From: Thauera aminoaromatica S2
GTDB lineage: Bacteria; Pseudomonadota; Gammaproteobacteria; Burkholderiales; Rhodocyclaceae
Direction: 5' to 3'
Assembly: GCF_000310185.1 (NCBI RefSeq)
Contig: NZ_AMXD01000002.1
Coordinates: forward strand, 1 to 64,000
DNA: 64,000 nucleotides
The notes under the pieces are model-generated. The model worked only from the letters and a program-made list of their open reading frames with translations. It ran no database searches and had not been told where the DNA came from. The position numbers and the translations under genes were made by a program. Shown here one piece after another: positions 19,951 to 39,332 of the stretch; positions within the stretch are counted from its first letter, which is position 1; the number at the start of each line of letters is the position of its first letter.

Positions 19951-20912
19951 TTGGCGTCTCCTCCCTGCAGGGCGCGCTTGATACGGCCCGGAACGCCGGC
20001 CAGGCCACCCGGCAGGAACAGCACGACCGCGACGATCACGCCACCCATCAGCAGCTGCCAGTACTTGGTGATGTCGGCGAAGATCTCGCGCATCGCCTCG
20101 AAGGCGAAGGCCCCCGCGATCGCGCCGGCGAGATTGCCCATGCCGCCCAGGATCACCATCAGCAGCACGTTGCCCGACTCGTGCCAGGACAGCAGCTCCG
20201 GGGTCACGAAGCCGGACAGCACGGCGTACAGAAAGCCCGCCAGCCCGCCGAGCGCGCCGGCCAGCGTGAAGGCGCCGAGCTTGTAGCGGAAGGTGTAGTA
20301 GCCGAGCGACTGCATGCGGTGCTCGTTGCTCTTGATGCCCACCAGCACGCGGCCGAAGGGCGACTGCAGCACGCGCGCCAGGAACAGATACACCAGCACC
20401 AGCACCGCGAGCACGAAATAGAACATGTGCACTTCGTTGGTGAGGTCGAACGGCTCCCAGCCGAAGATGGACGCAGAGGGCTTGTTGTTGAGGTACTTGC
20501 CGTCCGAACCGCCGCCGAGCGGGGTGTCGTGGAAGATGAAGTAGGCCATCTGCGCGAAGGCCAGCGTCACCATGATGAAATAGATGCCCTTGGTGCGCAG
20601 CACGAAGAGCCCGATCACGAAGGCGGCGAGCGCGGACAGGCCGACCGAGGCGGGCAGCACGTACCACAGGCTGGCCGCCTCGTACTCGGGGCTCAGGATC
20701 GCCACCGCGTAGGCGGCGATGCCGAAGTAGGCCGCATGGCCGAAGCTGACCAGGCCGGTGAAGCCCACCAGCAGGTCCAGGCTCATGGCGAAGATCGCCA
20801 TCACCAGCACCTTGCCGACCATCTCGATGTAGAAGGACTCGCCCGACAGCGGCACGCAGGCCACGATCGCGAGCGCGACCAGCTTGGGAATCAGGGAAGC
20901 ATTTGCGTTCAT
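19947..20912 (-). CDS. livM: branched-chain-type ABC importer permease, LivM family
   Basis: 321 aa with about nine hydrophobic segments. LivM-family features are LLVGFTGLVSFGHAAYFGIAAYAVAIL (about 45-72) and GNLAGAIAGAFAFEAMREIFADI near the C-terminus. It is spaced 4 nt from livH and overlaps livG. Confidence 0.9.
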   Translation of the reverse strand: MNANASLIPKLVALAIVACVPLSGESFYIEMVGKVLVMAIFAMSLDLLVGFTGLVSFGHAAYFGIAAYAVAILSPEYEAASLWYVLPASVGLSALAAFVIGLFVLRTKGIYFIMVTLAFAQMAYFIFHDTPLGGGSDGKYLNNKPSASIFGWEPFDLTNEVHMFYFVLAVLVLVYLFLARVLQSPFGRVLVGIKSNEHRMQSLGYYTFRYKLGAFTLAGALGGLAGFLYAVLSGFVTPELLSWHESGNVLLMVILGGMGNLAGAIAGAFAFEAMREIFADITKYWQLLMGGVIVAVVLFLPGGLAGVPGRIKRALQGGDAK

Positions 20913-20916
20913 GGTC

Positions 20917-21783
20917 TCAGCCCTTCTTCAGGATGCCTTCGGGGCGCCACAGCAGGACCACCGCCATGACCACATACACCACGATGCCGGAGAGCTCGGG
21001 GACCAGGACCTTGCCGAAGGTGTCGGCGAAGCCCACGATCAGCGCGGCGACGAGCGCGCCCCACACCGAGCCGATGCCGCCGATGACCACGATCACGAAG
21101 GAGATGATGAGCACGTGGCTGCCCATGTTCGGGAACACCGACGAGATCGGCGCGGCCAGCATGCCGGCGAGCGCGGCGAGCGCGACGCCGAGCGCGAACA
21201 CGACCCGGTAGATCATGTTGATGTTGATGCCGAGCGCCTCGACCATGCCGCGGTCGTCGTTGCCGGCGCGGATCATCATGCCCAGGCGGGTGCGCTGGAT
21301 CAGGTAGTAGAGCGCGACCGCGAGCACGATGCAGATCGCCGAGATGGCCAGCCGGTATACCGGATAGCTCATGACCTCGGTGAGCTGGATCGAGGCGTCG
21401 AGGAAGGCGGGAATCGCCACCCCGTGCACATCGTCGCCCACGAGCAGGCTGCGCAGCTGCTCGAAGATGAGAATGAGGCCGTAGGTGAGCAGCACCTGCT
21501 CGAGGTGGTCGCGCTTGTACAGGTGGGAAAACAGCGCCCACTCCAGGAAGGCGCCGAAGGCCAGCGCCAGCGGGATGCCGAGCACCACCGCCAGCACCAG
21601 GCTGCCGGTCGCGCTGGTGAGCACGAAGGCCAGGTAGGCGCCGATCATGTAGAAACTGCCGTGCGCCAGATTGATGATGCCCATGATGCCGAACACCAGC
21701 GTCAGTCCGCTTGCCACCAGAAAAAGCAGCAATCCGTACTGCAGCGAGTTCAGCGTCTGGATCAGGAAGCTTGCGAAATCCAT
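20917..21783 (-). CDS. livH: branched-chain-type ABC importer permease, LivH family
   Basis: 288 aa starting MDFASFLIQTLNSLQYG at ATG 21783, where the conserved LivH N-terminus begins; upstream codons in the frame are not conserved. Segments FGIMGIINLAHGSFYMIGAYLAF and GLILIFEQLRSL are typical. It is separated from the binding-protein gene by about 106 nt containing a hairpin. Confidence 0.9.
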   Translation of the reverse strand: MDFASFLIQTLNSLQYGLLLFLVASGLTLVFGIMGIINLAHGSFYMIGAYLAFVLTSATGSLVLAVVLGIPLALAFGAFLEWALFSHLYKRDHLEQVLLTYGLILIFEQLRSLLVGDDVHGVAIPAFLDASIQLTEVMSYPVYRLAISAICIVLAVALYYLIQRTRLGMMIRAGNDDRGMVEALGININMIYRVVFALGVALAALAGMLAAPISSVFPNMGSHVLIISFVIVVIGGIGSVWGALVAALIVGFADTFGKVLVPELSGIVVYVVMAVVLLWRPEGILKKG

Positions 21784-21851
21784 GACACTCCCCCTCCCGG
21801 CAGGCATGCGCCTGTCAGGATCGATCAGGGTTCAAGAAGGAACGGGATTGG

Positions 21852-21874
21852 GGGGCGGCCCGAGCGGCCGCCCC
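21852..21874 (-). other. intercistronic hairpin between livK-like gene and livH
   Basis: Stem GGGGCGGCC / GGCCGCCCC, 5-nt loop, no T-run. It directly follows the binding-protein gene and could stabilise the upstream transcript or reduce read-through to the permease. Confidence 0.6.
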
Positions 21875-21889
21875 TGCGAGGCTGAAGGC

Positions 21890-23062
21890 TTACATCTTGC
21901 AGCCGCGGGCGGGATCCTCGAGGCCCTTGGAGACGACCTCGAGCATCACGTTCTGATCACCCTTGACCTGGCGCATGTAGATGTCCTGCACCGGGTTGTG
22001 CGCCTTGGACAGCGTGAAGGCGCCGCGCGGGCTGTCGATCTTGGCGGACTCCATGCCCTTGATGATCTCTTCCTGCTTCTCCGGATCGCCGCCGGCGGCC
22101 TTCAGGCCGGCCTCGTACATCTGCGCGGCGTCGTAGCCCTGCACCGCATAGACGTCGGGCTGGAGCTTGTAGGTCGTGGCGTACTTGGTGCGGAAGGCCG
22201 CATCCTTGGCGTGGGTCAGGCCGTCGGCGTAGTGCAGTGTGGTGAGCAGGCCCTCGCCCGCTCCGCCCATCGCACCGAGGTTGCCGTCGGTGAGGAAGCC
22301 CGGGCCGTACAGCGGGATGCTGTTCTTGAGACCGGCCGCGGCATAGTCGGCGACGAACTTGGCGGCGCCGGCGCCGGCGAAGAAGACGAACACCGCATCG
22401 GGCTTGGCCGCGGCGATCTCGGTCAGGAAGGGCTGGAACTCGACGTTGGGGAACGGCAAGGTCATTTCCTTGACGAGCTTGCCGCCCCCCTTCTCGAAGG
22501 CTTCCTTGAAGCCGGCGACCGACTCCTCGCCGAAGGAGTACTTCCAGGTCACCGTGGCGACGTTCTTGATGCCCTTCTTCGCAAGCGCCTCGCCCATCGC
22601 GTAGGACGGCTGCCAGGCCGAGAAGGACGAGCGGAAGATGTAGGGCGAGCACAGCGGGCCGGTCAGCTCGTTGGCGCCGGCGTTGGGGACGATCATCAGG
22701 GTCTTGGTGTCGCGGGCCACCTTGGCCATGGCGAGCGCGACCCCGGAGTGGACGGTACCGACCAGCACGTCGACCTTGTCGCGCGAGACCAGCTTCTTGG
22801 CGTTCTCGGTCGCCTTGGCCGGGTTGGACTCGTCGTCGACGGTGAAGTATTCGACCTCGCGGCCGCCGAGCTTGCCGCCGTTCTCGTCGACGAACTGCTT
22901 GAAGCCGTTGGTGATCGCGGTGCCGAGCGCGGCGTAGGTGCCGGTGTAGGGCAGCATCAGGCCGACCTTGACCTTGTCGGCCGCGTTCGCGGCGCCGATG
23001 CCGGCAGCGGCCAGCGCGAGGGTCAGGGCGAGGTTGCCGGCGAGTTTGAACGTGCTCTTCAT
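21890..23062 (-). CDS. periplasmic substrate-binding protein of the Liv-type importer
   Basis: 390 aa from ATG 23062 with a Sec signal peptide (MKSTFKLAGNLALTLALAAA, cleavage near ANA-ADK). The Peripla_BP_6 fold begins KVGLMLPYTGTYAALGTAITNGFKQFVDENGG. The family includes binding proteins for branched-chain amino acids, amides and aromatic acids. Lying between aromatic-degradation genes and livHMGF, it probably supplies benzoate or a related acid; ligand residues cannot be assigned by eye. Confidence 0.88.
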   Translation of the reverse strand: MKSTFKLAGNLALTLALAAAGIGAANAADKVKVGLMLPYTGTYAALGTAITNGFKQFVDENGGKLGGREVEYFTVDDESNPAKATENAKKLVSRDKVDVLVGTVHSGVALAMAKVARDTKTLMIVPNAGANELTGPLCSPYIFRSSFSAWQPSYAMGEALAKKGIKNVATVTWKYSFGEESVAGFKEAFEKGGGKLVKEMTLPFPNVEFQPFLTEIAAAKPDAVFVFFAGAGAAKFVADYAAAGLKNSIPLYGPGFLTDGNLGAMGGAGEGLLTTLHYADGLTHAKDAAFRTKYATTYKLQPDVYAVQGYDAAQMYEAGLKAAGGDPEKQEEIIKGMESAKIDSPRGAFTLSKAHNPVQDIYMRQVKGDQNVMLEVVSKGLEDPARGCKM

Positions 23063-23134
23063 GATGTCTCTTCCTTGCAGGTGGGTTGGATTCGTGCGTC
23101 TTCTGGACGACGCATCGTCTTGCGGATTCGGTCG

Positions 23135-23197
23135 GCCCCGTCGCGGCACGGGCTGTGCCGCGACGGGGCTGGAAACGCGGCCGCCGAGGCGGCCGCG
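23135..23197 (-). other. two intercistronic hairpins between dmpH and the binding-protein gene
   Basis: A 15-bp perfect stem with a 5-nt loop (23135-23149 / 23155-23169) is followed by a 9-bp stem (23176-23184 / 23189-23197). No T-run follows either. They fill most of the 155-nt gap and could set relative expression of catabolic and transport cistrons. Confidence 0.65.
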
Positions 23198-23217: not shown

Positions 23218-24006
23218 TCAGATGAAACGGGTGCTGACGCTGCCGAGCGACTGGATGCGCAGGTTGACGCTGTCGCCGGCCTGCACCGAGACCGCCTCGG
23301 TGACGCCGCCCGACAGGATCATGGTGCCCGCGGGGATCTCCTCGCCGCGCGCGCCGAGGTGGTTGGCCAGGGCCGCGATCGCCGCCGCCGGGTGACCGAG
23401 CACCGCGGCGCCGGCACCGACCGCCACCGGCTCGCCGTTCTTCTCGAGGACCACACCCAGGGTGCGCAGATCCAGGCCGGCGACCGGCGCCGCCTGGCCG
23501 CCGAGCACGAAGCGGGTCGACGAGCAGTTGTCGGCAATCACGCTCTTGAGGTCGAACTTGAAGTCCTTGTAGCGCGAATCGATGATCTCGATGCCGGGCA
23601 TGACGAAGTCGGTCGCCGCGAGCACCGCGCCGATGTGGCAGCCGGGGCCCTTGAGCGCGCGCTTGGTGACGAACACGATCTCGGGCTCGACCTTCGGGTG
23701 GATCAGCTCGCTGGTCTTGATCTCGCCACCGTCCGGCACGCTGAAGTAGTCGACGAGCCAGCCGAACACCGGGGTGTCGACGCCCATCTGCTTCATCTTG
23801 CCGCGCGAGGTCAGGCCGGCCTTGAGGCCGACCACGCGGTTGCCGCGCGCCAGCTTGCGGCGCAGGATCTCGGCCTGGATCGCGTAGGCGTCGTCCCAGT
23901 CCATGTCGGGATGGGCCTCGGTGATCTTCACCACTTCGAAGGCCTGCAGTTCGGCGTTCTCGAGGTGTTCGGCCAGTTGTTCGATGGTTTGCTGATTCAG
24001 TTTCAT
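23218..24006 (-). CDS. dmpH: 4-oxalocrotonate decarboxylase
   Basis: Decarboxylates 2-oxohex-3-enedioate to 2-hydroxypenta-2,4-dienoate in the dehydrogenase branch of catechol meta-cleavage. 262 aa, FAH-like fold shared with the hydratase beside it. KVEPEIVFV (about 105) and the GIEIIDSRYKDFKF segment (about 140) carry metal-site residues. DmpH/XylI normally forms a complex with DmpE/XylJ, the next gene upstream. Confidence 0.93.
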   Translation of the reverse strand: MKLNQQTIEQLAEHLENAELQAFEVVKITEAHPDMDWDDAYAIQAEILRRKLARGNRVVGLKAGLTSRGKMKQMGVDTPVFGWLVDYFSVPDGGEIKTSELIHPKVEPEIVFVTKRALKGPGCHIGAVLAATDFVMPGIEIIDSRYKDFKFDLKSVIADNCSSTRFVLGGQAAPVAGLDLRTLGVVLEKNGEPVAVGAGAAVLGHPAAAIAALANHLGARGEEIPAGTMILSGGVTEAVSVQAGDSVNLRIQSLGSVSTRFI

Positions 24007-24035: not shown

Positions 24036-24818
24036 TCAGACGAAGCGCACCGAGCAGCCGCCGATGCCGCCGATCGTCATGCGCAGGTTGTCGCCGCGCG
24101 CCACCGGGACCATGGCGCCCATGGCACCCGAGAGCACGATGTCGCCGGCCTTGAGCGCGATGCCGAGCGAGCCGAGCATGTTGGCCAGCCACACCATGGC
24201 GTTGACCGGATGGGCCATGGTGGCCGCGCCGGCGCCGGTGACGACGATCTCGCCGTTCTTCTCCAGCACCATGCCGGCGAGCGCGAGGTCGAGGTCGGCG
24301 ATGTCGACCAGCTGGTCGCCGAGCACGAACACGCCGCACGAGGCGTTGTCGGCCACGGTGTCCTGGATCTTGATCTTCCAGTCCTGGATGCGCGAATCGA
24401 CGATCTCGAAGCAGGCCATCACGCCTTCGGTGGCAGCGAGCACGTCGGCCGCGGTGACGCCCGGGCCCTGCAGGTCCTTCTTGAGCAGGAAGGCGATCTC
24501 GCCCTCGGCCTTGGGCTGGATGAGCGTGTCCATGTCGACCGACTCGCCCTCGTTGAAGACCATGCTGTCGAGCAGGTAGCCGAAGTCGGGCTGATGCACG
24601 CCCAGCATGTTCATCACCGCCTTGCTGGTGACGCCGATCTTCTTGCCGATGACGCGGTCGCCCTTCTCGAGGCGGCGCGCGATCATGCGCTGCTGCACGT
24701 GGTAGGCGTCCTCGATCGTCATGTCGGGATGCGCGGCGCTCAGCGGCGCGATCGGCGTGCGCGCGACGAGCGCGTCGTAGAGCGAATCGCCCAGGGCTTC
24801 GATGGTTTTCTGGTCCAT
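24036..24818 (-). CDS. dmpE: 2-oxopent-4-enoate hydratase
   Basis: Adds water to 2-hydroxypenta-2,4-dienoate to give 4-hydroxy-2-oxovalerate. 260 aa. Motifs KAEGEIAFLLKKDLQGPGVTAADVL (about 100-124) and FEIVDSRIQDWKIKIQDTVADNASCG (about 137-162) are family-typical. It is visibly homologous to dmpH, 29 nt apart, and precedes it in the operon. Confidence 0.93.
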   Translation of the reverse strand: MDQKTIEALGDSLYDALVARTPIAPLSAAHPDMTIEDAYHVQQRMIARRLEKGDRVIGKKIGVTSKAVMNMLGVHQPDFGYLLDSMVFNEGESVDMDTLIQPKAEGEIAFLLKKDLQGPGVTAADVLAATEGVMACFEIVDSRIQDWKIKIQDTVADNASCGVFVLGDQLVDIADLDLALAGMVLEKNGEIVVTGAGAATMAHPVNAMVWLANMLGSLGIALKAGDIVLSGAMGAMVPVARGDNLRMTIGGIGGCSVRFV

Positions 24819-24832
24819 GTACGATCTTCCTA

Positions 24833-26293
24833 TTACAGCTTGATGCAGACGTTCTTGAGGTCGGTGTAGAACTCGAGCGAGTGCACGCCGCCTTCACGGC
24901 CGATGCCCGACTGCTTGGAGCCACCGAAGGGGGTGCGCAGGTCGCGCAGGAACCAGCTGTTCACCCACGAGATGCCCACTTCCATCTTCTGCGCGACGCG
25001 GTGGGCGCGCGAGACGTCCTGCGTCCAGATCGCGCAGGCCAGGCCGTACTTGTTGTCGTTGGCCTTCTCCAGCACTTCCTCCTCGGTATCGAAGGGGGCG
25101 ATGTGGCAGCACGGCCCGAAGATCTCTTCCTTGATCACGCGGGCGGTTTCCGGCAGGCCGGTCCAGATGGTCGGCTGCACCCAGCAGCCATCGGCGAGTT
25201 CGCCCGGCATCTGGGGCACGCCGCCACCGGTCACCACGGTCGCACCTTCTTCCACGGCGACCTTGTAGTAGGACAGCACCTTCTCCTGATGCTTCTTGCT
25301 GACCAGCGGGCCGAAGTTGGCGGCCGGATCGTCCGGCACGCCGATCTTCATGCCTTCGGCGCCGGCCTTCAGGGCGGCGACGAACTTGTCGAAGATCGGG
25401 CGCTCGACATAGACGCGCTCGGTGCCCAGGCAGACCTGGCCGCAGTTCAGGAAGACGGAGCGCAGGGTGCCTTCGATGGCCTTGTCGAAGTCGCAGTCGG
25501 CGAACACGATCGCGGCGTTCTTGCCGCCCATTTCCAGCGACACCGGGCGCGAGCCGTTGGCCGCCGCCTTCATGATGACCTCGCCGGTGCGGGTCTCGCC
25601 GGTGAAGGTGAGCGCGTCGACGTCCGGGTGGGCGGTCAGGAAGGCGCCGGCGGAGTTGGCGCCGAAGCCGTTGACCACGTTGTAGACCCCCTTGGGGATG
25701 CCGACCTTGTTCATCACCTCGCCGAGCAGCGCGGCGGTGCGCGGGGTGTCTTCCGAGGGCTTGACGACCACGGTGTTGCCGCAGGCCAGCGCCGGGCCGA
25801 CCTTCCAGGTCATCAGCAGCAGCGGCAGGTTCCACGGGCAGATCACGCCGACCACGCCGACCGGACGGCGATAGCCGTAGTTGATCGCCTTGCCGCCGTC
25901 GGGCGTCGTCATCTCGAAGAACTCGGTCGGAACGTTCTTGACCATGTCCGCGAAGACCTTGAAGTTGGCCGCACCGCGCGGGATGTCCACATGCGAGGCC
26001 ATGCTCTTGGGCTTGCCGGTGTCGGCGCACTCGGCCTCGAGGAAGTCGTCGAAGCGGTTGTTGATCTCGACCACCAGGGCCTCGAGCAACTCGATGCGCT
26101 TCTGCAGCGACATCGAACCCCAGGGGCCCTTCAGCGCGGCCTTGGCGGCCTTGACGGCGGCGTCGACTTCCTTCTCGCCGGCTTCGGCGACCATGCCGAT
26201 CACCTTGTTGTTGATCGGGTTGCGGTTCTCGTACCACTTGTCGGTGGCGACGTATTCGCCGTCGATGAAGTTGAGGATCTTGTCAGCGATCAT
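24833..26293 (-). CDS. dmpC: 2-hydroxymuconic semialdehyde dehydrogenase
   Basis: NAD-dependent oxidation of the ring-cleavage product 2-hydroxymuconate semialdehyde to 2-hydroxymuconate. 486-aa aldehyde dehydrogenase fold: PWNLPLLLMTWK (about 153), FTGETRTGE, SLEMGGKNAAIV with the general-base Glu (about 255), and FLNCGQVCLGTERVYV with the catalytic Cys (about 289). This is the only copy in the window. Confidence 0.95.
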   Translation of the reverse strand: MIADKILNFIDGEYVATDKWYENRNPINNKVIGMVAEAGEKEVDAAVKAAKAALKGPWGSMSLQKRIELLEALVVEINNRFDDFLEAECADTGKPKSMASHVDIPRGAANFKVFADMVKNVPTEFFEMTTPDGGKAINYGYRRPVGVVGVICPWNLPLLLMTWKVGPALACGNTVVVKPSEDTPRTAALLGEVMNKVGIPKGVYNVVNGFGANSAGAFLTAHPDVDALTFTGETRTGEVIMKAAANGSRPVSLEMGGKNAAIVFADCDFDKAIEGTLRSVFLNCGQVCLGTERVYVERPIFDKFVAALKAGAEGMKIGVPDDPAANFGPLVSKKHQEKVLSYYKVAVEEGATVVTGGGVPQMPGELADGCWVQPTIWTGLPETARVIKEEIFGPCCHIAPFDTEEEVLEKANDNKYGLACAIWTQDVSRAHRVAQKMEVGISWVNSWFLRDLRTPFGGSKQSGIGREGGVHSLEFYTDLKNVCIKL

Positions 26294-26438: not shown

Positions 26439-27368
26439 TCAGGTCACGACGGTCAGGAAGCGCTCGTTGAGCTTGCGGTCGTGGTAGAAGATGCCGGCGC
26501 CGACCTCGTCGAAGGTCCAGGTGATCGGCGCGTGGTCGGGATAGGTCTCGTAGCCGCCGCAGAAGGTCTCGAAGCGGTTGCCCGAGGGGTCGAAGGCGTA
26601 GATCGTCGAGCCGCGGGTGATGCCGTGGCGGGTCGGGCCGATGTCGATCGACACCCGGTTCATCGACATGATGTCGGCCGCGCGCAGCACCTTCTCCCAG
26701 CTGTCGAGCAGGAAGGACAGGTGGTGCAGCTTGCCCGGCTCGGGGTGGGCGACGAAGGCCAGGTCGTGCGCCTTGTGCGAGCAGGAAATGAAGGTGGCGA
26801 GCAGGGACTTGCCGTCTTCGAGCAGCACGCGCTCGACGAGGTGGAAGCCGAGCACCTCGGTGAACAGCTTGAGGTTCTCCTCGAGGTTCGGGCCGTAGAG
26901 CAGGCAATGGTCGAAGCGGTGCGGAGCGATGCCGTGCTCGGAGGCGGCGATCCACGGATCCGGGTTGGTGTAGGGCTGGCCGTTGCCGACGTCGGTCTTT
27001 TCGGCATACAGCTCCATGACGTGGCCGGTCGGGATGGTGAAGCGCACGCGCTCGCCGGTCTCGAGCAGTTCGCCGGCCGGGATGCGCTCGGTGGCGACGC
27101 CGTAGGCCTGCAGGTCCTTGTCGAGTTGCTCGAGCGTCGCCTTGTCCTTGACCTTGAAGCCGATCAGGTCCACGCCGGCACGGTCGGCCTGGCGCAGGAT
27201 CACGCTATTGTGGTCGCGCTCGTCCCAGGCCTTGAAATACACACGGCCGGCTGCATCGCGGCCGGTCTCGACGAGCCCGAGCACGTCCTTGTAAAAGGCC
27301 ACGCTTTCATCCAGATCCAGCACGCGCAGCTGGATGTGGCCAGGACGCATCACTCCGGTAGTTGCCAT
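26439..27368 (-). CDS. dmpB: catechol 2,3-dioxygenase (copy 1)
   Basis: Extradiol Fe(II) enzyme cleaving catechol next to the diol to 2-hydroxymuconate semialdehyde. 309 aa, two vicinal-oxygen-chelate domains. Iron ligands are recognisable in FDHCLLYGP (His, about 153), GKLHHLSF (His, about 214) and NRFETFCGGY (Glu, about 265). The start at ATG 27368 matches the conserved MATTGVMRPGHIQLRV. A second copy lies at 42856-43785, about three quarters identical by eye. Confidence 0.96.
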   Translation of the reverse strand: MATTGVMRPGHIQLRVLDLDESVAFYKDVLGLVETGRDAAGRVYFKAWDERDHNSVILRQADRAGVDLIGFKVKDKATLEQLDKDLQAYGVATERIPAGELLETGERVRFTIPTGHVMELYAEKTDVGNGQPYTNPDPWIAASEHGIAPHRFDHCLLYGPNLEENLKLFTEVLGFHLVERVLLEDGKSLLATFISCSHKAHDLAFVAHPEPGKLHHLSFLLDSWEKVLRAADIMSMNRVSIDIGPTRHGITRGSTIYAFDPSGNRFETFCGGYETYPDHAPITWTFDEVGAGIFYHDRKLNERFLTVVT

Positions 27369-27465: not shown

Positions 27466-27825
27466 CTACGACTGCCTTGCGTCCGCGGCCGCCGCTGACG
27501 GCGTCGCGCACACGTTCTTCTTCATCTTGCCGAGCACCGCCAGGCGGAGGTCCGACAGCGGCTTCACGCGGCAGGCGAGGACGATGCCGGCGGCCTCCTC
27601 CTCGGCACTGACGTAGGCCCGGCTCATCACGCGCTTGCTGTACTCGCCGGCCTCGACCTGCACCTTGCACACGCCGCAACCGCCGCCGCGACAGCCCACC
27701 GGGATGCCGCGCTTGCCAAGCCGCTCCATGCCCGCGAGCAGGGTCTCGTCCTCACGGCAGCGGTAAACCTCGCCGGTCTCGACGATGGTCACCTGGTGGA
27801 AGACCTTCGGCGCGGGGGCGTTCAT
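27466..27825 (-). CDS. xylT: XylT/DmpQ-like [2Fe-2S] ferredoxin
   Basis: 119 aa, plant-type ferredoxin with CRGGGCGVCKVQV (three Cys, about 45-57) and LACRVKPLSDL (fourth Cys). In TOL-type pathways XylT re-reduces catechol 2,3-dioxygenase whose iron has been oxidised by substituted catechols. It sits immediately before dmpB, as in dmp/xyl operons, and one base after the stop of the large ferredoxin oxidoreductase gene. The C-terminal tail is longer than usual. Confidence 0.9.
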   Translation of the reverse strand: MNAPAPKVFHQVTIVETGEVYRCREDETLLAGMERLGKRGIPVGCRGGGCGVCKVQVEAGEYSKRVMSRAYVSAEEEAAGIVLACRVKPLSDLRLAVLGKMKKNVCATPSAAAADARQS

Positions 27826-27826
27826 G

Positions 27827-30800
27827 TCAGGCCACCTGCCGTTCCTGCTGCGCCTCGTTGAAGGCCTTCAGGCGCGCAGCCTGCAGTTCGCGGGCCGCGG
27901 CGAGGTTCTTCTCCTTGACGTGGCCGAAACCGCGGATCTCGTCGGGCACGCTCGCCAGCGCCACCGCCGCAGCGTGATTCACCGGGTTGAGCCTGGCGAG
28001 GATCTGGTCGAGCAGCTGGATGTACTCCTCGATCAGCTTGCGCTCGGTCTGGCGCTCTTCGGTCTTGCCGAAGACATCGAGCGCGCTGCCACGGAAGCGC
28101 TTCAGGCCGGACAAGCGCTTGAAGGCCTTGAACATCCACTCGCCGTACTGCTTCTTCTGCGGGTGGCCGGTGACCGGATCGGTCTTGGAGAGCAGCGGAG
28201 GCGCAAGGTTGTACTTCACCGAGTAGCCATGCGGGAACTGCGCATCGAGCTCGGCGAGGAAGGCCGGGTCGGTGTGCAGGCGGGCGACCTCGAACTCGTC
28301 CTTGTAGGCCATCAGCTTGTACAGGTAGCGGGCGGCCGCCTCGGCGAGCGCGGAGGAGGAAACCGCCTTCTGCTCGCCCGCAACCACGCGCTTGATCACC
28401 TCGGCGTAGCGCCTGGCGTAGGCCTCGTCCTGGAAGGCGATGAGCTCGGGCACGCGGATCTCGACCAGGCGCTTGACCTCGCCGCTGGCGCCGATCGAAT
28501 CGACGATCGCACGCGCAGCCGGCGACAGCTGCGGCGCCTTGTTCAGCACGACCACCTGGCCACCGGTCTTCTGGCGCGCGACCTCGGCCTCGACGAAGGC
28601 GCGATCGACCACCGCCATGCGGCCCCAGCGGAAGGCGGCCAGACTCATGTCCACCGCGACGCCGGACTGGCGGATGGCGTCCTCGATCGACTCGGCCCGG
28701 AGCGGGATCGTGCCGGCCTGGAAGGCCACGCCGACCATGAAGTTGTTGGTCGCCATCGCATCGCCGAACAGGCCCGCCGCCAGCGCCTCACCGTCGAGGA
28801 ACACGTTGTGCTCCTTGCGGGTGACGCGGTCGATGCCGCCGGTGAGGCCGCTGGTGGCCGGGAACAGCGCCTTGCGGTTGGTCACCATCTGACCGGTCGG
28901 GGTCTGGGTGGTGGACACGATCGCGATGGTGCGCTCCGGATTGCACTTGTCGAGGTTCTTCGGGTCGGTGGCGTTGAGGATGTCGAAGCCCAGATACAGG
29001 TCGGCACGGCCGTCGGAGATCTTGTTCGAACCCTTGAACGGGGCGTGGGTGATCTTGATGTCGGAGATCACCGCGCCGCCCTTCTGCGCCAGACCGGTCT
29101 GGTCGAGGCCGATCACGTGCTTGCCTTCGAGGCGGGCGGCACGCGCCAGCGTCGCCACGACGGTCACCGAGCCGGTGCCGCCGATGCCCATGACGTGGAT
29201 GCCGAAGCCCAGGCTGTCATCGACCTTCTTGACCGGCGGCGGCAGCTCGCGCTCGAGCGCCGGGATGCGACCCTTTTTCTTCTTGGGCGCGCCATCGGCG
29301 GCCGGGGCCGGATGCGGGGTGATGGTCAGGAAGGACGGGCAGAAGCCCTTCACGCAGCTGAAGTCCTTGTTGCACGAGGACTGGTGGATGCGGGTCTTGC
29401 GACCGAACTCGGTCTGCACCGGCTCGACCGACATGCAGTTCGACTTCTCGCCGCAGTCGCCGCAGCCTTCGCAGACGCGCTCGTTGATGACGGTGACCTC
29501 GACCGGCTCGTCGGCCTTGCCGCGGCTGCGCGCACGGCGCAGCTCGGCGGCACACTCCTGGTCGTGCAGCAGCACGGTGCAGCCCGGGGTGGCGGCAAGC
29601 TCGCGCTGCGCCTCCTCGATGCGGTCGCGGTGCCAGACCTCGGTGCCACCGGGCAGCTGCACGCCGTTGAAGCGCGAGGGGTCGTCGGTGGTGACGATGA
29701 TCTTCTTGACGCCGTTGGCGAGGAGGTCGGAGACCATGTTGGTCACCGGGACCTCGCCCTGGATGGCCTGGCCGCCGGTCATCGAGGTGTGCGCGTTGCG
29801 CAGCAGCTTGAAGGTGATGTTCACCCCGGTCGAAGCCGCATAGCGGATCGCCAGGCTGCCCGAGTGCGCGTAGGTGCCGTCGCCCATGTTCTGGAAGATG
29901 TGCTGCGCCTCGGTGAAGGGCGCCATGCCGATCCACTGCGTGCCCTCGGCGCCCATGTGGGTGCCCATGACCACGTTGCGGCCCATCCACATCGCCATGG
30001 TGTGGCAGCCGATGCCGGCCGACACGATGCTGCCGTCGGGGGCCTGGGTCGAGGAGTTGTGCGGACAGCCCGAGCAGAACCAGGCGGTGCGCACCGCGGT
30101 CGGCAGCTTGTTGCGCGAGTGGATCTCGTCCAGGCGCTTGAGCCAGTTCTCGGCCGACTCGATGCGGGTCTTGCGCGACAGGCGCTTCAGCAGCGCGCGC
30201 ACGATGACGTCGGACTCGAACTCGCCGTAGTGCGGCAGCAGCTCCTTCTCTTCCTCGTCGAACTTGCCGACGATGCGCGGCGCGTTGGCCATGCCGTAGA
30301 GCACCTGCTTGGCGAACATCTCCAGGAAGGGACGCTTTTCCTCGATGACGAAGATCTCTTCCAGTCCCTGCGCGAACTCGCGCACGATGCTCGGCTCCAT
30401 CGGGAACAGCATGCCCATCTTGAGGATGCGGATGCCGTAGCGGCGCAGCGCGGCATCGTCCAGGCCCATCTCGAGGAAGGCCTGGTTGAGGTCGTTGTAG
30501 GTCTTGCCCGCGGTGAGGATGCCGATCCAGGCGTCGGGGTTGGGGAAGACGACGTTGTTGAGGTTGTTGGCGCGGGCGTAGCGCTTCACCACCTCGAGGC
30601 GGCGGGTGTACAGCGACTGCTCCATCTCCAGCGCCTCGACGCGCACGTTCATGCCCAGGTTCATGTTGGGCGTGAACAGCTTGCCATCGAACTCGAGGTC
30701 GGGGGTGACGAAGTTCAGGCGCTCGGGCGACACGCTGGCGGTGCCGGTGCCGTCGGCGACGTTGGTGACGATCTTCATGCCCATCCACACGCCCGCCAGA

Positions 30801-31369
30801 CGCGACATCTGGTAGCCGTGCAGGCCGTAGTCGAGGATCTCCTGCACGTTGCCCGGGTACAGCGAGGGGATGCCGACGTGGAACAGCATGGGCTCGGACT
30901 GCGAGCACAGCGAGGAGCTCTTGCAGCTCGGGTCGTCGCCCGCGATCGCGAGCACGCCGCCGTTCTTGGCGATGCCGGTGTAGTTGGCGTGCTTGAGCGC
31001 GTCACCGGAGCGGTCCACGCCCGGCGCCTTGCCGTACCACATGCCGGTGACGCCGTCGAACTTCTGCTTGCCGACGGTGTGCAGCATCTGCGTGCCCCAC
31101 ACCGCGGTGGCGGCGAGATCCTCGTTGATGCCGTCCACGAAGTGGATGTGGTTCTGCACCAGCAGCTTCTGCTGCTTGATCAGCGCGGCGTCGAGCATGC
31201 CGACGGGAGAGCCGCGGTAGCCGGAGACGAACATGCCCGTCTTGAGCCCGCGACGGGCGTCGGTGCGCACCTGATCGAGGGTCAGACGGACGATCGCGTC
31301 GATGCCGCCGAGGTGGATGTCTCCTTCTTCCTGGGTGAACGTGTTGGAGATTTGCTTGCCGGATGACAT
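27827..31369 (-). CDS. indolepyruvate:ferredoxin oxidoreductase-type fusion protein (IorAB-like)
   Basis: 1180 aa combining what archaeal IorA and IorB do separately. The N-terminal half is a thiamine-diphosphate oxidoreductase (GDDPSCKSSSLCSQSE, about 143; FCSGCPHNSSTQAP and GIGCHTMAMWMGRN, about 430-460). Next is a ferredoxin-like cluster region (CEGCGDCGEKSNC, about 630, and later SCVKGFCPSF), a gamma domain starting GIGGTGSVTVVATLARAA (about 722), and a conserved C-terminal region. The family oxidises arylpyruvates or other 2-oxoacids to acyl-CoA with ferredoxin. It is the first gene of the meta-cleavage operon, which is unusual; its substrate here is unknown. Confidence 0.88.
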   Translation of the reverse strand: MSSGKQISNTFTQEEGDIHLGGIDAIVRLTLDQVRTDARRGLKTGMFVSGYRGSPVGMLDAALIKQQKLLVQNHIHFVDGINEDLAATAVWGTQMLHTVGKQKFDGVTGMWYGKAPGVDRSGDALKHANYTGIAKNGGVLAIAGDDPSCKSSSLCSQSEPMLFHVGIPSLYPGNVQEILDYGLHGYQMSRLAGVWMGMKIVTNVADGTGTASVSPERLNFVTPDLEFDGKLFTPNMNLGMNVRVEALEMEQSLYTRRLEVVKRYARANNLNNVVFPNPDAWIGILTAGKTYNDLNQAFLEMGLDDAALRRYGIRILKMGMLFPMEPSIVREFAQGLEEIFVIEEKRPFLEMFAKQVLYGMANAPRIVGKFDEEEKELLPHYGEFESDVIVRALLKRLSRKTRIESAENWLKRLDEIHSRNKLPTAVRTAWFCSGCPHNSSTQAPDGSIVSAGIGCHTMAMWMGRNVVMGTHMGAEGTQWIGMAPFTEAQHIFQNMGDGTYAHSGSLAIRYAASTGVNITFKLLRNAHTSMTGGQAIQGEVPVTNMVSDLLANGVKKIIVTTDDPSRFNGVQLPGGTEVWHRDRIEEAQRELAATPGCTVLLHDQECAAELRRARSRGKADEPVEVTVINERVCEGCGDCGEKSNCMSVEPVQTEFGRKTRIHQSSCNKDFSCVKGFCPSFLTITPHPAPAADGAPKKKKGRIPALERELPPPVKKVDDSLGFGIHVMGIGGTGSVTVVATLARAARLEGKHVIGLDQTGLAQKGGAVISDIKITHAPFKGSNKISDGRADLYLGFDILNATDPKNLDKCNPERTIAIVSTTQTPTGQMVTNRKALFPATSGLTGGIDRVTRKEHNVFLDGEALAAGLFGDAMATNNFMVGVAFQAGTIPLRAESIEDAIRQSGVAVDMSLAAFRWGRMAVVDRAFVEAEVARQKTGGQVVVLNKAPQLSPAARAIVDSIGASGEVKRLVEIRVPELIAFQDEAYARRYAEVIKRVVAGEQKAVSSSALAEAAARYLYKLMAYKDEFEVARLHTDPAFLAELDAQFPHGYSVKYNLAPPLLSKTDPVTGHPQKKQYGEWMFKAFKRLSGLKRFRGSALDVFGKTEERQTERKLIEEYIQLLDQILARLNPVNHAAAVALASVPDEIRGFGHVKEKNLAAARELQAARLKAFNEAQQERQVA

Positions 31370-31462: not shown

Positions 31463-31526
31463 AGATTAGGGGGAGCGGCCATACGGCAATATCCACTTCG
31501 TGCACAACCGCTATCCGCTTTGTGCA
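31463..31526 (-). promoter_or_regulatory. XylS/BenR-type activator sites and promoter for the meta operon
   Basis: On the minus strand two TGCA-N6-GGATA elements occupy 31526-31512 and 31504-31490, 22 bp apart. A -10-like TAATCT lies at 31468-31463, about 21 nt beyond the proximal element. This is the layout of Pm-type promoters, where an AraC/XylS regulator binds tandem TGCAN6GGNTA boxes next to the -35 region. The promoter reads toward the ferredoxin oxidoreductase gene. Confidence 0.75.
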
Positions 31527-31539: not shown

Positions 31540-31602
31540 TGCAGAGAGTGGATACTGATGTTGCAAGAACTGGATATTTCGCGCCTTTTGACCTCCCTAC
31601 GA
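31540..31602 (+). promoter_or_regulatory. XylS/BenR-type activator sites and promoter for benABCD
   Basis: Two TGCA-N6-GGATA elements at 31540-31554 and 31562-31576, 22 bp apart, are followed by a -10-like TACGAT at 31597-31602. This is the mirror image of the pair serving the opposite operon. The benR-like gene downstream of benD is the obvious candidate activator. Confidence 0.78.
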
Positions 31603-31642: not shown

Positions 31643-32977
31643 ATGATCACCACGGAATATCTGGACTCACTCATCGAAAAGGACAAGGAAAAGGGCCTTT
31701 TCCGCTGCAAGCGTGAGATGTTCACCAACAGGGAGCTGTTCGACCTCGAGATGGAACACATCTTCGAGGGCAACTGGATCTACCTCGCCCACGAGAGCCA
31801 GCTGCCGAAGATCAACGACTACTACACGACCAAGATCGGTCGTCAGCCAGTGTTCATCACCCGCAACAAGGACAACCAGCTCAACTGTTTCATCAACGCC
31901 TGCGCCCACCGCGGCGCCACGCTGGCACGCTTCAAGCACGGCAACAAGGCCACCTACACCTGCCCGTTCCACGGCTGGACCTTCAACAACTCGGGCAAGC
32001 TGCTGAAGATCAAGGACCCGTCCGAGACCGGCTACCCCGAGAGCTTCAACTGCGAGGGCTCGCACGATCTCAAGAAGATCGCGCGCTTCGAGTCCTACCG
32101 CGGCTTCCTGTTCGGCAGCCTGAAGGCCGACGTGCAGCCGCTGGAAGACTTCCTCGGCGAGTCGAAGAAGATCATCGACATGGTCGTCGACCAGTCGCCC
32201 GAGGGCCTGGAAGTGCTGCGCGGCTCCTCGACCTACGTCTATGAAGGCAACTGGAAGCTGCAGGCCGAGAACGGCGCCGACGGCTACCACGTCACCGCCA
32301 CGCACTGGAACTACGCCGCCACCCAGGCGCAGCGCAAGAGCCGCGACGCCGGCGACGACATCAAGGCCATGAGCGCCGGCGGCTGGGCCAAGAAGGGCGG
32401 CGGCTCGTACTCGTTCGAGAACGGCCACCTGCTGCTGTGGACGCGCTGGGACAACCCCGAAGACCGTCCGCTGATGGAACAGCGCGACCGTCTGGTCAAG
32501 GAATTCGGCGAAGCCAAGGCCGATTGGATGATCGGCAATTCGCGCAACCTGTGCCTGTACCCGAACGTGTACCTGATGGACCAGTTCAGCTCGCAGATCC
32601 GCGTGTTCCGCCCGCTCGACGTCAACCGCACCGAAGTCACCATCTACTGCATCGCGCCCAAGGGCGAGTCGGCCGAGGCGCGTGCCCGCCGCATCCGCCA
32701 GTACGAGGACTTCTTCAACGCCTCGGGCATGGCCACGCCGGACGACCTCGAAGAATTCCGCGCCTGCCAGGAAGGCTTCATGGGCCGTGCGCTGGAGTGG
32801 AACGACATGTCGCGCGGCGCCACGCACTGGGTCGAAGGCCCGGACGAAGAAGCGGACAAGATCGACCTCAAGCCCATCCTGTCGGGCGTGAAGACCGAGG
32901 ACGAGGGCCTCTACGTCGCCCAGCACACCTACTGGCTTGAAGAGATTCGCAAGGCTGCCGCGGCCAAGAACGCATAA
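31643..32977 (+). CDS. benA: benzoate/toluate 1,2-dioxygenase large (alpha) subunit
   Basis: Ring-hydroxylating dioxygenase converting benzoate to the 1,2-cis-diol carboxylate. 444 aa. Rieske [2Fe-2S] motif [11 protein letters not shown] ... CPFHGWTF (about 90-115) and mononuclear-iron facial triad near [16 protein letters not shown] (about 212-227). CAGGAGAC precedes the ATG. Substrate could include toluates; BenA and XylX are not distinguishable by eye. First gene of benABCD. Confidence 0.95.
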
Positions 32978-32992
32978 CCGGAGACCCAAGAG

Positions 32993-33481
32993 ATGAGCCT
33001 TTCCTACGAGAACCTGTGCGCCTTCCTGTACCGCGAAGCCCGTCACCTCGACGACCGCGAGTGGGACGAGTGGCTGGCGATGTACGACGAGAACTGCACC
33101 TTCTGGATGCCCGCCTGGGACGATGACGGCGAGCTGACCGAGGACCCGCAGACCGAGATCTCGCTGATCTGGTACGGCCGCCGCGCCGGCCTGGAAGACC
33201 GCGTGTTCCGCATCCGCACCGAGCGCTCGAGCGCGACCATCCCCGACACCCGCACGAACCACCACATCAGCAACGTCGAGGTGGTCGAGCAGAACGACAA
33301 GACGGTCAAGCTGCGCTTCAACTGGCACACCATGAGCGTGCGCTACAACCACACCGACCACTTCTGCGGCACCAGCTTCTACACCCTGGACGTGTCCGGT
33401 GCGAGCCCGCTGATCAAGGAAAAGAAGGTCGTCCTGAAGACCGACTACATCCGCCACGTCATCGACGTTTACCACGTCTGA
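32993..33481 (+). CDS. benB: benzoate/toluate 1,2-dioxygenase small (beta) subunit
   Basis: 162 aa structural subunit of the alpha3-beta3 oxygenase, SnoaL/NTF2-like fold (FLYREARHLDDREWDEWLAMYDENCTFWMP at residues 11-40). It lies 15 nt after benA. The 68-nt gap to benC contains a strong hairpin. Confidence 0.95.
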   Translation: MSLSYENLCAFLYREARHLDDREWDEWLAMYDENCTFWMPAWDDDGELTEDPQTEISLIWYGRRAGLEDRVFRIRTERSSATIPDTRTNHHISNVEVVEQNDKTVKLRFNWHTMSVRYNHTDHFCGTSFYTLDVSGASPLIKEKKVVLKTDYIRHVIDVYHV

Positions 33482-33487
33482 CAACGA

Positions 33488-33531
33488 GGGCGGGGCACCG
33501 CGCGCCGGCAACGGCGCGGGCGACCCCGCCC
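33488..33531 (+). other. intercistronic hairpin between benB and benC
   Basis: Outer stem GGGCGGGG / CCCCGCCC and inner stem CGCGCCG / CGGCGCG, no T-run. It immediately follows the oxygenase subunits and precedes the reductase, which is normally needed in smaller amounts. Confidence 0.6.
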
Positions 33532-33549
33532 CAACCGGGAGAGACAACC

Positions 33550-34560
33550 ATGACATTCAAGATCGCGCTGAACTTCGAGGACGGCGTCACCCGCTTCATC
33601 GACTGCAACGCCACCGAGACCGTGGCCGACGCGGCCTACCGCCAGGGCGTGAACGTGCCCATCGATTGCCGCGACGGTGCCTGTGGCGCCTGCAAGTGCA
33701 AGGCCGAGTCGGGCAAGTACGAGCTCGGCTTCTACATCGACGACGCCATGAGCGCGGAAGAGGCCAAGCTCGGCTACGTCCTCACCTGCCAGATGCACCC
33801 CAAGAGCGACTGCGTCGTGAACGTGCCCGCCTCGTCCGAGGTGTGCAAGATCAAGCACGCCACCCTCACCGCCACCGTGGCCGAGGTGCGCCAGCTCTCG
33901 CCGAGCACGCTCTCGCTCGTGCTGCAGGGCGAAGGCATCGGCAAGCTCGCCTTCCTGCCCGGCCAGTACGCCAACCTCACCGTGCCCGGCACCGAGCAGA
34001 CGCGCGCCTACTCGTTCAGCTCCATGCCCACCGACAGCCAGGTGAGCTTCCTCATCCGCAACGTGCCCAACGGCCTGATGAGCGGCTACCTCACCGGCGC
34101 AGCCAAGGCCGGCGACACCATCAAGCTCGCCGGCCCGATCGGCAGCTTCTACCTGCGCGACGTCGCCCGCCCGGTGCTGATGCTCGCCGGCGGCACCGGT
34201 CTCGCGCCCTTCCTCGCCATGCTCGACAAGCTCGTCGCGGCCGGTGGAAGCGCGCACCCGGTGCACCTGATCTACGGCGTGAACACCGATGCCGACGTGG
34301 TCGAGCTCCAGCGCCTGGACGCCTTCAAGGCCGCACTGCCCAACTTCACCTACGACGTCTGCGTGGTGGCCGACGACAGCAGCTGGCCGAAGAAGGGCTA
34401 TGTCACCGCCCACATCGAGCCCGCCCACCTCAACGAAGGCAACGTGGACATCTACCTGTGCGGCCCCCCGCCCATGGTCGAGGCCGTCGCCCACGACCTG
34501 CGCGAGCGCAAGGTCGAACCGAACAGCTTCCATTACGAGAAGTTCGCCGCCAGCGTCTGA
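33550..34560 (+). CDS. benC: benzoate dioxygenase reductase
   Basis: 336 aa electron-transfer protein from NADH to BenAB. The N-terminal plant-type [2Fe-2S] domain has CRDGACGACKCKAESG (about 40-55) and LTCQM (about 78). Then come an FAD domain (RAYSFSSMPTD, about 150) and an NAD domain (LAGGTGLAPFLAML, about 215; YLCGPPPMVEAV, about 302). Confidence 0.95.
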   Translation: MTFKIALNFEDGVTRFIDCNATETVADAAYRQGVNVPIDCRDGACGACKCKAESGKYELGFYIDDAMSAEEAKLGYVLTCQMHPKSDCVVNVPASSEVCKIKHATLTATVAEVRQLSPSTLSLVLQGEGIGKLAFLPGQYANLTVPGTEQTRAYSFSSMPTDSQVSFLIRNVPNGLMSGYLTGAAKAGDTIKLAGPIGSFYLRDVARPVLMLAGGTGLAPFLAMLDKLVAAGGSAHPVHLIYGVNTDADVVELQRLDAFKAALPNFTYDVCVVADDSSWPKKGYVTAHIEPAHLNEGNVDIYLCGPPPMVEAVAHDLRERKVEPNSFHYEKFAASV

Positions 34561-34587
34561 GCGCTGCCCATCCCGTCAGGAGCGACA

Positions 34588-35364
34588 ATGGCAAACCGTT
34601 TCAAGAAGAAAGTGGCCGTCATCACCGGCGCCGCGCAGGGCATCGGCAAGCGCGTCGCCGAGAAGATGGCCAAGGAGAAGGGCACCCTGGTGCTGGTCGA
34701 CCGCTCCGAGCTCGTGCATGAGGTGGCCAAGGAGCTGTCCGGCAAGGTCGACGTCCTCAGCCTCACCGCCGACCTGGAGAAGTTCGCCGACTGCAAGCGG
34801 GTCATGGAGGCCGCGGTCGAGAAGTTCGGCCGCATCGACATCCTGATCAACAACGTCGGCGGCACGATCTGGACCAAGCCCTTCGAGCACTACGAGGAGG
34901 ACGAGATCGAGGCCGAGGTGCGGCGCTCGCTCTTCCCCACGCTGTGGTGCTGCCGCGCCGCCCTGCCCTACATGCAGGAACAGGGCAAGGGTGCGATCGT
35001 GAACGTGTCCTCGATCGCCACCCGCGGCGTCAACCGCGTGCCCTACGGCGCGGCCAAGGGCGGCGTCAATGCGCTCACCGCCTGCCTGGCGTTCGAGAAC
35101 GCCGAGCGCGGCATCCGCGTCAATGCCACCGCGCCCGGCGCCACCGAGGCCCCGCCGCGTCTGATCCCGCGCAACACCAAGGAACAGAGCGAGCAGGAGA
35201 AGCTCTGGTACAAGCAGATCTACACCCAGTCGATCGACAGCAGCCTGATGAAGCGCTACGGCACGCTCGACGAGCAGGCCGACCCGATCCTGTTCCTCGC
35301 CTCCGACGACGCCGCCTACATCACCGGCACCATCGTGCCGGTGGGCGGTGGCGACCTGGGCTGA
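34588..35364 (+). CDS. benD: 1,2-dihydroxycyclohexa-3,5-diene-1-carboxylate dehydrogenase
   Basis: Short-chain dehydrogenase rearomatising the benzoate cis-diol to catechol with loss of CO2. 258 aa: cofactor motif VITGAAQGIGKRVA (about 11-24), INNVGG (about 90), catalytic VSSIATRGVNRVPYGAAKGG (Ser/Tyr/Lys, about 140-160). Last gene before a strong terminator. Confidence 0.94.
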   Translation: MANRFKKKVAVITGAAQGIGKRVAEKMAKEKGTLVLVDRSELVHEVAKELSGKVDVLSLTADLEKFADCKRVMEAAVEKFGRIDILINNVGGTIWTKPFEHYEEDEIEAEVRRSLFPTLWCCRAALPYMQEQGKGAIVNVSSIATRGVNRVPYGAAKGGVNALTACLAFENAERGIRVNATAPGATEAPPRLIPRNTKEQSEQEKLWYKQIYTQSIDSSLMKRYGTLDEQADPILFLASDDAAYITGTIVPVGGGDLG

Positions 35365-35433: not shown

Positions 35434-35512
35434 CGTCCCCCTGTCTTGCGGCCTCAGAATTAAAAAACTTTATCCATAGAACCATAGACAGCGCTTTTGC
35501 TTCCCAATAAAA

Positions 35513-35539
35513 TCGAGATTCTTAAGTTTCTCGAAGAAT
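35513..35539 (+). promoter_or_regulatory. TCGAGA-N10-TCTCGA inverted repeat before benR
   Basis: TCGAGA (35513-35518) and TCTCGA (35529-35534) form a 6-bp dyad with 10-bp spacing. The right arm, TTTCTCGAAGAAT, resembles the putative GntR motif. It lies in the AT-rich upstream region of the AraC regulator, about 130 bp before its start. Confidence 0.45.
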
Positions 35540-35670
35540 GGCCGATCAAGAAGCCGACTTCGTCCGACAGAGAGCGAGACAGCCTGCACGCCAGGCGGAG
35601 AGGAGAAGCGCATGAGCAAGGAACGCCGGTTTCAGACGCACGTGAGCAAACCCGAATGGAGGACCGCGTG

Positions 35671-36642
35671 ATGCCCATCCGCTTCCTCAACGGCCAGAGC
35701 AATGTCTTCGCCGCCGCCAACCCCTTCGAGGTCTCCGAGTACGTGCGCGCCAACGTGGGTTCGCACAGCCTGCGCCTGCCGCGCGCCAGCGACGCCAGCG
35801 CCTCGCTCAGCCACCGCCGCGCCGGCACGCTGGATCTTTGCCGTCTCAGCTACGGCGCGCAGGCCCGCGTGCTGTCCGAGAGCCTCGGCGACATCTACCA
35901 CGCCCAGTTCATCCTGCAAGGCTATTGCAGCTACACGCTCGCCAACCGCACGCTCGACCTGCCCGCCGGCCACGTGCTGGTGCTCAACCCGGACGAGCCG
36001 GTGGACCTCACCTACTCGGACAACTGCGAGAAGTTCATCGTCCGCATCCCCTCGGCGATGCTCGACGACGCCTGCACCGAGCACCGCTGGTTCAAGCCCA
36101 ACGAGCGCATCAAGTTCAGCCCCGAGCCGCAGCGTTTCGAGGACATCGACAGCCTGCTGCTGCTGTTGCGCCTGCTCTGCGAGGAGGCCGAATCCGAGCT
36201 GGCGACGCCGCAGATGCTGCAGCACTACTGTCGCGTGGTCACCACCAAGCTGATGGTGATGCTCAAGCACAACGTCAGCATGGTCGCCCCCACCCGGCAC
36301 GCGCCCAGCTTCGAGCGCCTGGTGAACTACATCGAGCGCAACATCAAGCTCGATCTCAGCGCCGAGGATCTCGCCCACTACGCCGGGCTGAGCCTGCGCT
36401 CGCTCTACCTGCTGTTCGAGAAGAACGTGAAGACGACGCCGAAGAACTTCGTGCGCCAGAAGAAGCTCGAGAAGGTGCATTCGATCCTGAGCGACCCGGG
36501 CCAGGCCTGTCCGAACGTCACCGCGGTCGCGCTCGAGTACGGCTTCTCGCACCTGGGCCGCTTCTCCGAACTTTACAAATCCACCTACGGCGTGCTGCCC
36601 TCGCAGTCGATCCGCTGCCGCCAGCCCCAGGCCGGGCGCTGA
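35671..36642 (+). CDS. benR: AraC/XylS-family regulator, BenR-like
   Basis: 323 aa. N-terminal effector/dimer domain of the AraC_binding_2 type (LGDIYHAQFILQGYC...LPAGHVLVLNPDEP, about 75-115) and C-terminal pair of helix-turn-helices (DLSAEDLAHYAGLSLRSLYLLFEKNVKTTPKNFVRQKKLEK, about 228-270; VTAVALEYGFSHLGRFSELYKSTYG, about 285-310). The start at 35671 has GGAGG 8 nt upstream; longer versions lack one. It is the expected activator of the two promoters with TGCA-N6-GGATA sites. Confidence 0.88.
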   Translation: MPIRFLNGQSNVFAAANPFEVSEYVRANVGSHSLRLPRASDASASLSHRRAGTLDLCRLSYGAQARVLSESLGDIYHAQFILQGYCSYTLANRTLDLPAGHVLVLNPDEPVDLTYSDNCEKFIVRIPSAMLDDACTEHRWFKPNERIKFSPEPQRFEDIDSLLLLLRLLCEEAESELATPQMLQHYCRVVTTKLMVMLKHNVSMVAPTRHAPSFERLVNYIERNIKLDLSAEDLAHYAGLSLRSLYLLFEKNVKTTPKNFVRQKKLEKVHSILSDPGQACPNVTAVALEYGFSHLGRFSELYKSTYGVLPSQSIRCRQPQAGR

Positions 36643-38938: not shown

Positions 38939-39042
38939 CCCTTGAATTCCTCCTTGATTGGTCTTGCGACGAGTGTGTTGCTCCTGGACCGGCGCCCTCT
39001 GCGGAGCGCTCGGTGAATCTCATTCTCGCGGGTGCACGACCG

Positions 39043-39234
39043 TCAGCGCCCGAGGTCCTTCGCCGACACCCCGCCGATGCCCCAGTTGGTCTTGGGCACC
39101 TCGCGGATGACGACGCGCACGCTCTCGATCGGAGCGCCGACGGCCTCGACGATCGCCTGGGTCACCTTCTGGATCACTGCGCGCTTCTGGTCTTCGGTAC
39201 GGCCTTCCATCATGGTGATTTCTGCCAGCGGCAT
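39043..39234 (-). CDS. dmpI: 4-oxalocrotonate tautomerase
   Basis: 63 aa including the initiator. Pro-1 after Met removal (MPLAEITMMEGRTEDQKRAVI) is the catalytic base of the tautomerase superfamily. Arg residues in VRVVIREVPKTNWGIGG match the substrate site. It isomerises 2-hydroxymuconate to 2-oxohex-3-enedioate, the substrate of the decarboxylase encoded 15 kb away in module 1. Confidence 0.93.
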   Translation of the reverse strand: MPLAEITMMEGRTEDQKRAVIQKVTQAIVEAVGAPIESVRVVIREVPKTNWGIGGVSAKDLGR

Positions 39235-39332
39235 GGTCTCTTCCTCCGGTTGTCGAACTATTGCGAGCCGGCGCCCCCGGCGTCCGGCCCGCGGAAAACG
39301 ACCGGTGCGGCCCGCGCCGCACCGGCGGCGAC

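Follow-up and report, generated by a model that had tools for sequence, protein, structure and literature searches.

A predicted ferredoxin-dependent ending of the catechol meta-cleavage pathway in Thauera and related bacteria

Analysis of a 64,000-nt stretch of Thauera aminoaromatica S2 (assembly GCF_000310185.1, contig NZ_AMXD01000002.1, positions 1-64,000 of the forward strand; hereafter, the window) and of related loci suggests that a protein of the indolepyruvate:ferredoxin oxidoreductase (IOR) type, encoded in a catechol meta-cleavage operon, is likely a coenzyme A (CoA)-forming 2-oxoacid:ferredoxin oxidoreductase that ends the pathway in place of DmpG and DmpF, most likely giving 3-hydroxybutyryl-CoA. 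The end of the meta pathway, in which a hydratase, an aldolase, and an acylating acetaldehyde dehydrogenase produce pyruvate and acetyl-CoA, is held to be common to the catechol, biphenyl, phenylpropionate, and related pathways. In the ending proposed here, 4-hydroxy-2-oxovalerate, CoA, and oxidised ferredoxin would yield 3-hydroxybutyryl-CoA, CO2, and reduced ferredoxin. The C4-CoA would then enter acetoacetyl-CoA/acetyl-CoA metabolism or, where genes for MaoC, phasin, and PhaC come next, polyhydroxybutyrate (PHB). We infer this substrate, product, and electron acceptor from the following gene-context evidence.

The IOR operon shares catechol 2,3-dioxygenase (C23O), DmpC, DmpE, DmpH, and XylT with the canonical dmp/xyl/aph lower meta pathway. 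However, canonical operons encode DmpG and DmpF alongside DmpE and DmpH, whereas IOR operons carry IOR instead of the two. We located every strong DmpE, DmpF, and DmpG in 61 genomes, counting genes within 5 kb as linked. Among the 46 DmpE loci, DmpF or DmpG was linked to none of the 19 that also had IOR, compared to 20 of the 27 that did not. The pattern recurred in the IOR clade, which was delimited with a core alignment run against 84,980 species genomes: 75 loci reached at least 77% core identity, and the next best match was 57%. Where both flanks were complete (44 loci), DmpE was present in 37, DmpH in 36, DmpC in 35, and XylT in 23, while DmpF was in none and DmpG in one, where it belongs to a neighbouring operon. 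In four genomes with an IOR operon, no DmpF and no DmpG reached the cut-off: G451/G052 (L097), G473 (L129), and two isolates, Curvibacter lanceolatus (L131) and C. gracilis (L147). Draft assemblies may miss genes, but these four cases agree. Most other genomes, including that of the window, encode DmpFG in a separate operon.

The range of pathways in which IOR occurs points to its substrate. The catechol, phenylpropionate, and 3-hydroxyanthranilate pathways differ in the enzyme that cleaves the ring and meet only at 2-hydroxypenta-2,4-dienoate, from which the hydratase makes 4-hydroxy-2-oxovalerate, the substrate of the aldolase. Besides its catechol setting, IOR follows HcaE, MhpA, MhpB, and MhpD- or MhpC-like genes in phenylpropionate/cinnamate clusters (L092, L114, and L115), and accompanies NbaC, a DmpC-like dehydrogenase, Rid, a hydratase, and a decarboxylase in 3-hydroxyanthranilate clusters (L131, L147, and L149). 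Pathway context changed at least five times on the IOR tree. Since one IOR ends three pathways having only this intermediate in common, it would be expected to act on the shared 2-hydroxypentadienoate/4-hydroxy-2-oxovalerate. The nba-type clusters (L131, 8684-17597; L147; L149) pair IOR with MaoC, and neither the aldolase nor the acetaldehyde dehydrogenase was found near them.

The family name, and the annotation of paralogues as indolepyruvate enzymes, would instead suit an IOR that oxidises aldolase-derived pyruvate, or arylpyruvates, and owes its operon position to history. We regard this as highly improbable, since IOR is repeatedly linked with meta pathways of three kinds and forms a distinct clade with its own residues near the thiamine diphosphate (TPP) motif. 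Moreover, pyruvate is an unlikely substrate because genomes without DmpG, which make no pyruvate by this route, also have the IOR operon. A first-pass annotation of the window, made from its sequence, had suggested that IOR might oxidise a pathway 2-oxoacid such as pyruvate, or that it might handle arylpyruvates and share control by historical accident. The first idea is supported as to a pathway 2-oxoacid, though as a replacement for DmpG and DmpF, which that annotation had not proposed; the second is unlikely in view of the switches in pathway context.

The genes bordering IOR bear on its product. DmpH is its immediate upstream neighbour in 25 of the 75 loci and DmpI in 13; immediately downstream lies a MaoC-domain hydratase (PF01575) in 25. 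PhaC is close to IOR in 10 loci and phasin (TIGR01841) in five, and the class I polyhydroxyalkanoate (PHA) synthase at L117 (TIGR01838) scored 703 bits against a cut-off of 622. Because MaoC, phasin, and PHA synthase genes lie downstream, the product is predicted to be a short acyl-CoA. DmpE yields the (S)-alcohol, so (S)-3-hydroxybutyryl-CoA would be expected; its passage into PHB would then require dehydration followed by (R)-specific hydration, a task suited to the MaoC protein. The window itself holds a PHA cluster (56412-60716, minus strand) 27 kb from IOR, in which a class I PHA synthase (718 bits) is encoded together with PhaR and two acetoacetyl-CoA reductases.

The position of MaoC directly 3' of IOR in a third of the loci (25/75) would also fit a variant in which IOR has the same role but takes the unhydrated 2-oxopent-4-enoate (2-hydroxypenta-2,4-dienoate), forming butenoyl/crotonyl-CoA for hydration by the adjacent MaoC protein. 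At L092 the order is MhpB-MhpC-IOR-MaoC with no hydratase in between, an arrangement that suits this substrate and counts against 4-hydroxy-2-oxovalerate. However, DmpE is retained in most full-flank loci (37/44), including most MaoC-PhaC operons, which favours 4-hydroxy-2-oxovalerate over the unhydrated acid; we therefore consider the variant unlikely.

Within the window, IOR and xylT are separated by a single base and are co-regulated, and an enzyme of this class is expected to produce reduced ferredoxin. The first-pass annotation proposed that IOR, by oxidising a 2-oxoacid, supplies XylT with the electrons that reactivate C23O. As a primary role this found no support. XylT is the next gene downstream in only seven of the 75 loci, all of one derived arrangement, whereas IOR persists beside other dioxygenase classes (MhpB or 3-hydroxyanthranilate dioxygenase) with no XylT nearby, and the steady partner of XylT is C23O, which directly follows 24 of 28 xylT genes. 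In addition, the loss of dmpFG and the gain of MaoC/PhaC would be left unexplained. The usual gene order in the clade is xylT-C23O-dmpC-dmpE-dmpH-IOR, and the order of the window, with IOR first and adjoining xylT, is restricted to a derived subclade. On these neighbour counts XylT was rejected as a dedicated partner of IOR as a general rule, and we judge it very unlikely that IOR serves as its electron source. The IOR-xylT pairing is thus real, and partly known already, while its XylT side is incidental; reduced ferredoxin from IOR could nevertheless reach XylT.

Several observations weigh against IOR as the replacement for DmpG and DmpF. In the genome of the window, dmpFG lie 8 kb from the IOR operon, so that replacement there is not obligatory; obligatory replacement is indeed ruled out by the presence of both genes at 39-41 kb, and we infer that both routes run in this organism. 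In two loci from metagenome-assembled genomes (MAGs), L088 and L101, DmpF/G belong to the same gene run as IOR. The Fisher p of 2.5e-7 for the exclusion of DmpF/G is overstated, since the loci are related. IOR also occurs without DmpE nearby in Rugosibacter, Acidocella, and L113 loci, and a search of the L113 genome for a DmpE relative found none, so another substrate is possible there. Finally, the AlphaFold2 model of IOR is unsure near the active site. The L113 locus (8684-12820) is an IOR-MaoC pair on a Bradyrhizobiaceae chromosome in which DmpE, DmpF, and DmpG are all below cut-off genome-wide.

The assignment of IOR to its enzyme class follows from full-length alignment to NCBIfam PRK13030 (residues 4-1177; 1635 bits, cut-off 816), together with a TPP motif (GDG at 496-498, and N525) and a CxxCxxC...C...C...C...C cysteine pattern that are invariant with its paralogues. 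The AlphaFold2 model (mean confidence, pLDDT, of 75, low near the active site) was used for fold alone, its active site being too uncertain for substrate contacts. The best Foldseek matches were all pyruvate:ferredoxin oxidoreductases (PFOR; E ~5e-14, with low TM scores from uncertain domain packing), and these modelled folds support the 2-oxoacid:ferredoxin oxidoreductase (OFOR) class, not a substrate. A search of solved structures with the IOR sequence gave no match. In a FastTree phylogeny, 64 full-length sequences formed a single clade with 100% local support and a long stem. Its members read N[AS]HTSMTGGQ next to the TPP motif, compared to NDAVAMTGGQ in most paralogues examined; the 75 loci come from Thauera, Azoarcus, Dechloromonas, Zoogloea, Rhodocyclus, Rugosibacter, Rhodoferax, Variovorax, Ottowia, Curvibacter, Paraburkholderia, Cupriavidus, Acidocella, and several MAGs. 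The genome of the window also encodes an ordinary IOR paralogue with 44% identity to the operon enzyme. No plasmid copy of the clade was found (best match 46.5%), and spread by plasmids was rejected on that basis.

Part of this system has been described before. For Thauera sp. MZ1T and Dechloromonas aromatica RCB, Suvorova and Gelfand (2019; PMC6449761) reported a BenR-regulated divergon containing a COG4231 gene, whose product they called 2-ketoacid ferredoxin oxidoreductase. As here, the oxidoreductase gene is grouped with aphQ (xylT; Thauera only), aphBCEH, and an ABC transporter, divergent from benABCD and under BenR. The passages of that paper available to us assign the oxidoreductase no role, nor do they describe the absence of dmpFG, the MaoC/PhaC link, or the mhp and nba contexts. 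A mechanistic precedent is EdcC of estrogen degraders, an IOR-family enzyme that cells require to process the meta-cleavage product of estrogens and whose proposed product is a CoA ester (Ibero et al., 2020, PMC7793797; reviewed in PMC12507874). By its published description, EdcC likewise has a 2-oxoacid as substrate and follows an extradiol dioxygenase in its pathway, with MaoC genes nearby, and the IOR gene studied here is linked to an extradiol dioxygenase as in EdcC-type systems. However, EdcC has a steroid ring-A substrate and acts directly on the ring-cleavage product. Conversion of 4-hydroxy-2-oxopentanoate to 3-hydroxybutyryl-CoA, the same reaction as proposed here, was considered for Aspergillus terreus and left unclear by its authors (PMC7842363), but that system is fungal and a branched-chain 2-oxoacid dehydrogenase was suggested. 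Our literature search, which covered mainly open-licence papers, found no role for IOR in catechol pathways and no paper assigning this reaction to the enzyme.

With less assurance, we lean toward the wider view that many Burkholderiales and some other Proteobacteria would have a dedicated ferredoxin-dependent ending, in which a C5/C6 2-oxoacid gives 3-hydroxybutyryl-CoA (3-hydroxyvaleryl-CoA from methylcatechols), the aldolase/dehydrogenase pair is replaced in at least three pathways, and an intact C4 unit passes into PHB. If true, flux models would change for the Thauera, Zoogloea, Paraburkholderia, and Variovorax that live in wastewater and polluted soil. Free acetaldehyde would be avoided, low-potential ferredoxin would be supplied in aerobes, and pollutant breakdown would be tied to a bioplastic. 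Furthermore, one clade of a large family so far named only "indolepyruvate ferredoxin oxidoreductase" would gain a substrate. The C4 prediction could readily be checked by labelling.

Profile scores and a reading of the junction confirmed the gene layout given in the first-pass annotation (Table 1). The operon runs IOR-xylT-C23O-dmpC-dmpE-dmpH with IOR first, and exactly one base separates the IOR stop from the xylT start (GGCC-TGA-C-ATG). The IOR-xylT-C23O order also occurs next to benA in six other genomes of the genus, as well as in Thauera, Azoarcus, and Dechloromonas loci from named organisms, so the order is not due to chance; the pairing sought in other genomes is thus present elsewhere, though it is not the conserved feature of the clade. 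The 273-bp gap between IOR and the divergent benABCD contains all four exact copies of TGCAN6GGNTA, which we take to be the XylS/BenR consensus, found in the whole window (0.59 expected). Two copies face each direction, spaced 22 bp apart, and both pairs are kept in eight of nine related ben-divergent loci, L077 being without one IOR-facing box. Since all four boxes sit in the divergent gap and are conserved in related loci, the IOR operon is real and is probably induced together with benzoate dioxygenase.

Table 1. Features of the IOR operon and its surroundings in the window.
Feature	Position	Strand	Support
Fused 2-oxoacid (IOR-type) ferredoxin oxidoreductase, 1180 aa	27827..31369	-	PRK13030, POR gamma domain, DUF6537, partial TPP_enzyme_C; OFOR/PFOR fold match
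XylT-like [2Fe-2S] ferredoxin	27466..27825	-	Pfam Fer2, E 1.4e-17
Catechol 2,3-dioxygenase (C23O)	26439..27368	-	TIGR03211, 461 bits; likely ATG 27368, longest open reading frame GTG 27392
2-Hydroxymuconic semialdehyde dehydrogenase (DmpC)	24833..26293	-	TIGR03216, 904 bits; likely ATG 26293
2-Oxopent-4-enoate hydratase (DmpE)	24036..24818	-	TIGR03220, 468 bits, cut-off 408.8
4-Oxalocrotonate decarboxylase (DmpH)	23218..24006	-	TIGR03218, 482 bits
Branched-chain/urea-type ABC transporter (binding protein, permeases, ATPase)	18468..23149	-	Same strand, downstream of DmpH; order kept in related loci
benABCD (benzoate 1,2-dioxygenase and diol dehydrogenase), divergent from IOR	31643..35364	+	TIGR03229, TIGR03232, NF040810, NF040811
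AraC-family regulator, candidate BenR	35497..36642	+	Pfam AraC_binding_2 and HTH_18
DmpG and DmpF of neighbouring phenol operon, only over-cut-off copies in the genome	39333..41399	-	TIGR03217, 562 bits; TIGR03215, 477 bits
Two direct-repeat BenR/XylS-type boxes facing the IOR operon	31490..31526	-	Exact motif match
Two direct-repeat BenR/XylS-type boxes facing benA	31540..31576	+	Exact motif match

The ABC transporter downstream of dmpH, called a benzoate ABC transporter in PMC6449761, likely serves aromatic acid uptake. A 3-hydroxybutyryl-CoA dehydrogenase gene (15803-16672, minus strand) was not counted as an operon member, since a plus-strand GntR gene intervenes and the dehydrogenase gene was not found in the other loci compared. 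The phenol-type meta operon (38009-50042) encodes phenol hydroxylase, a second C23O, a DmpD-like hydrolase, DmpF, DmpG, and DmpI. It is without DmpC, DmpE, and DmpH, exactly the three that the IOR operon has, so the two operons are complementary. Each catabolic region has one GntR-family (CsiR-like) regulator on the plus strand, at 16956-17669 and 42049-42768, the latter of which may be an AphS-type phenol regulator.

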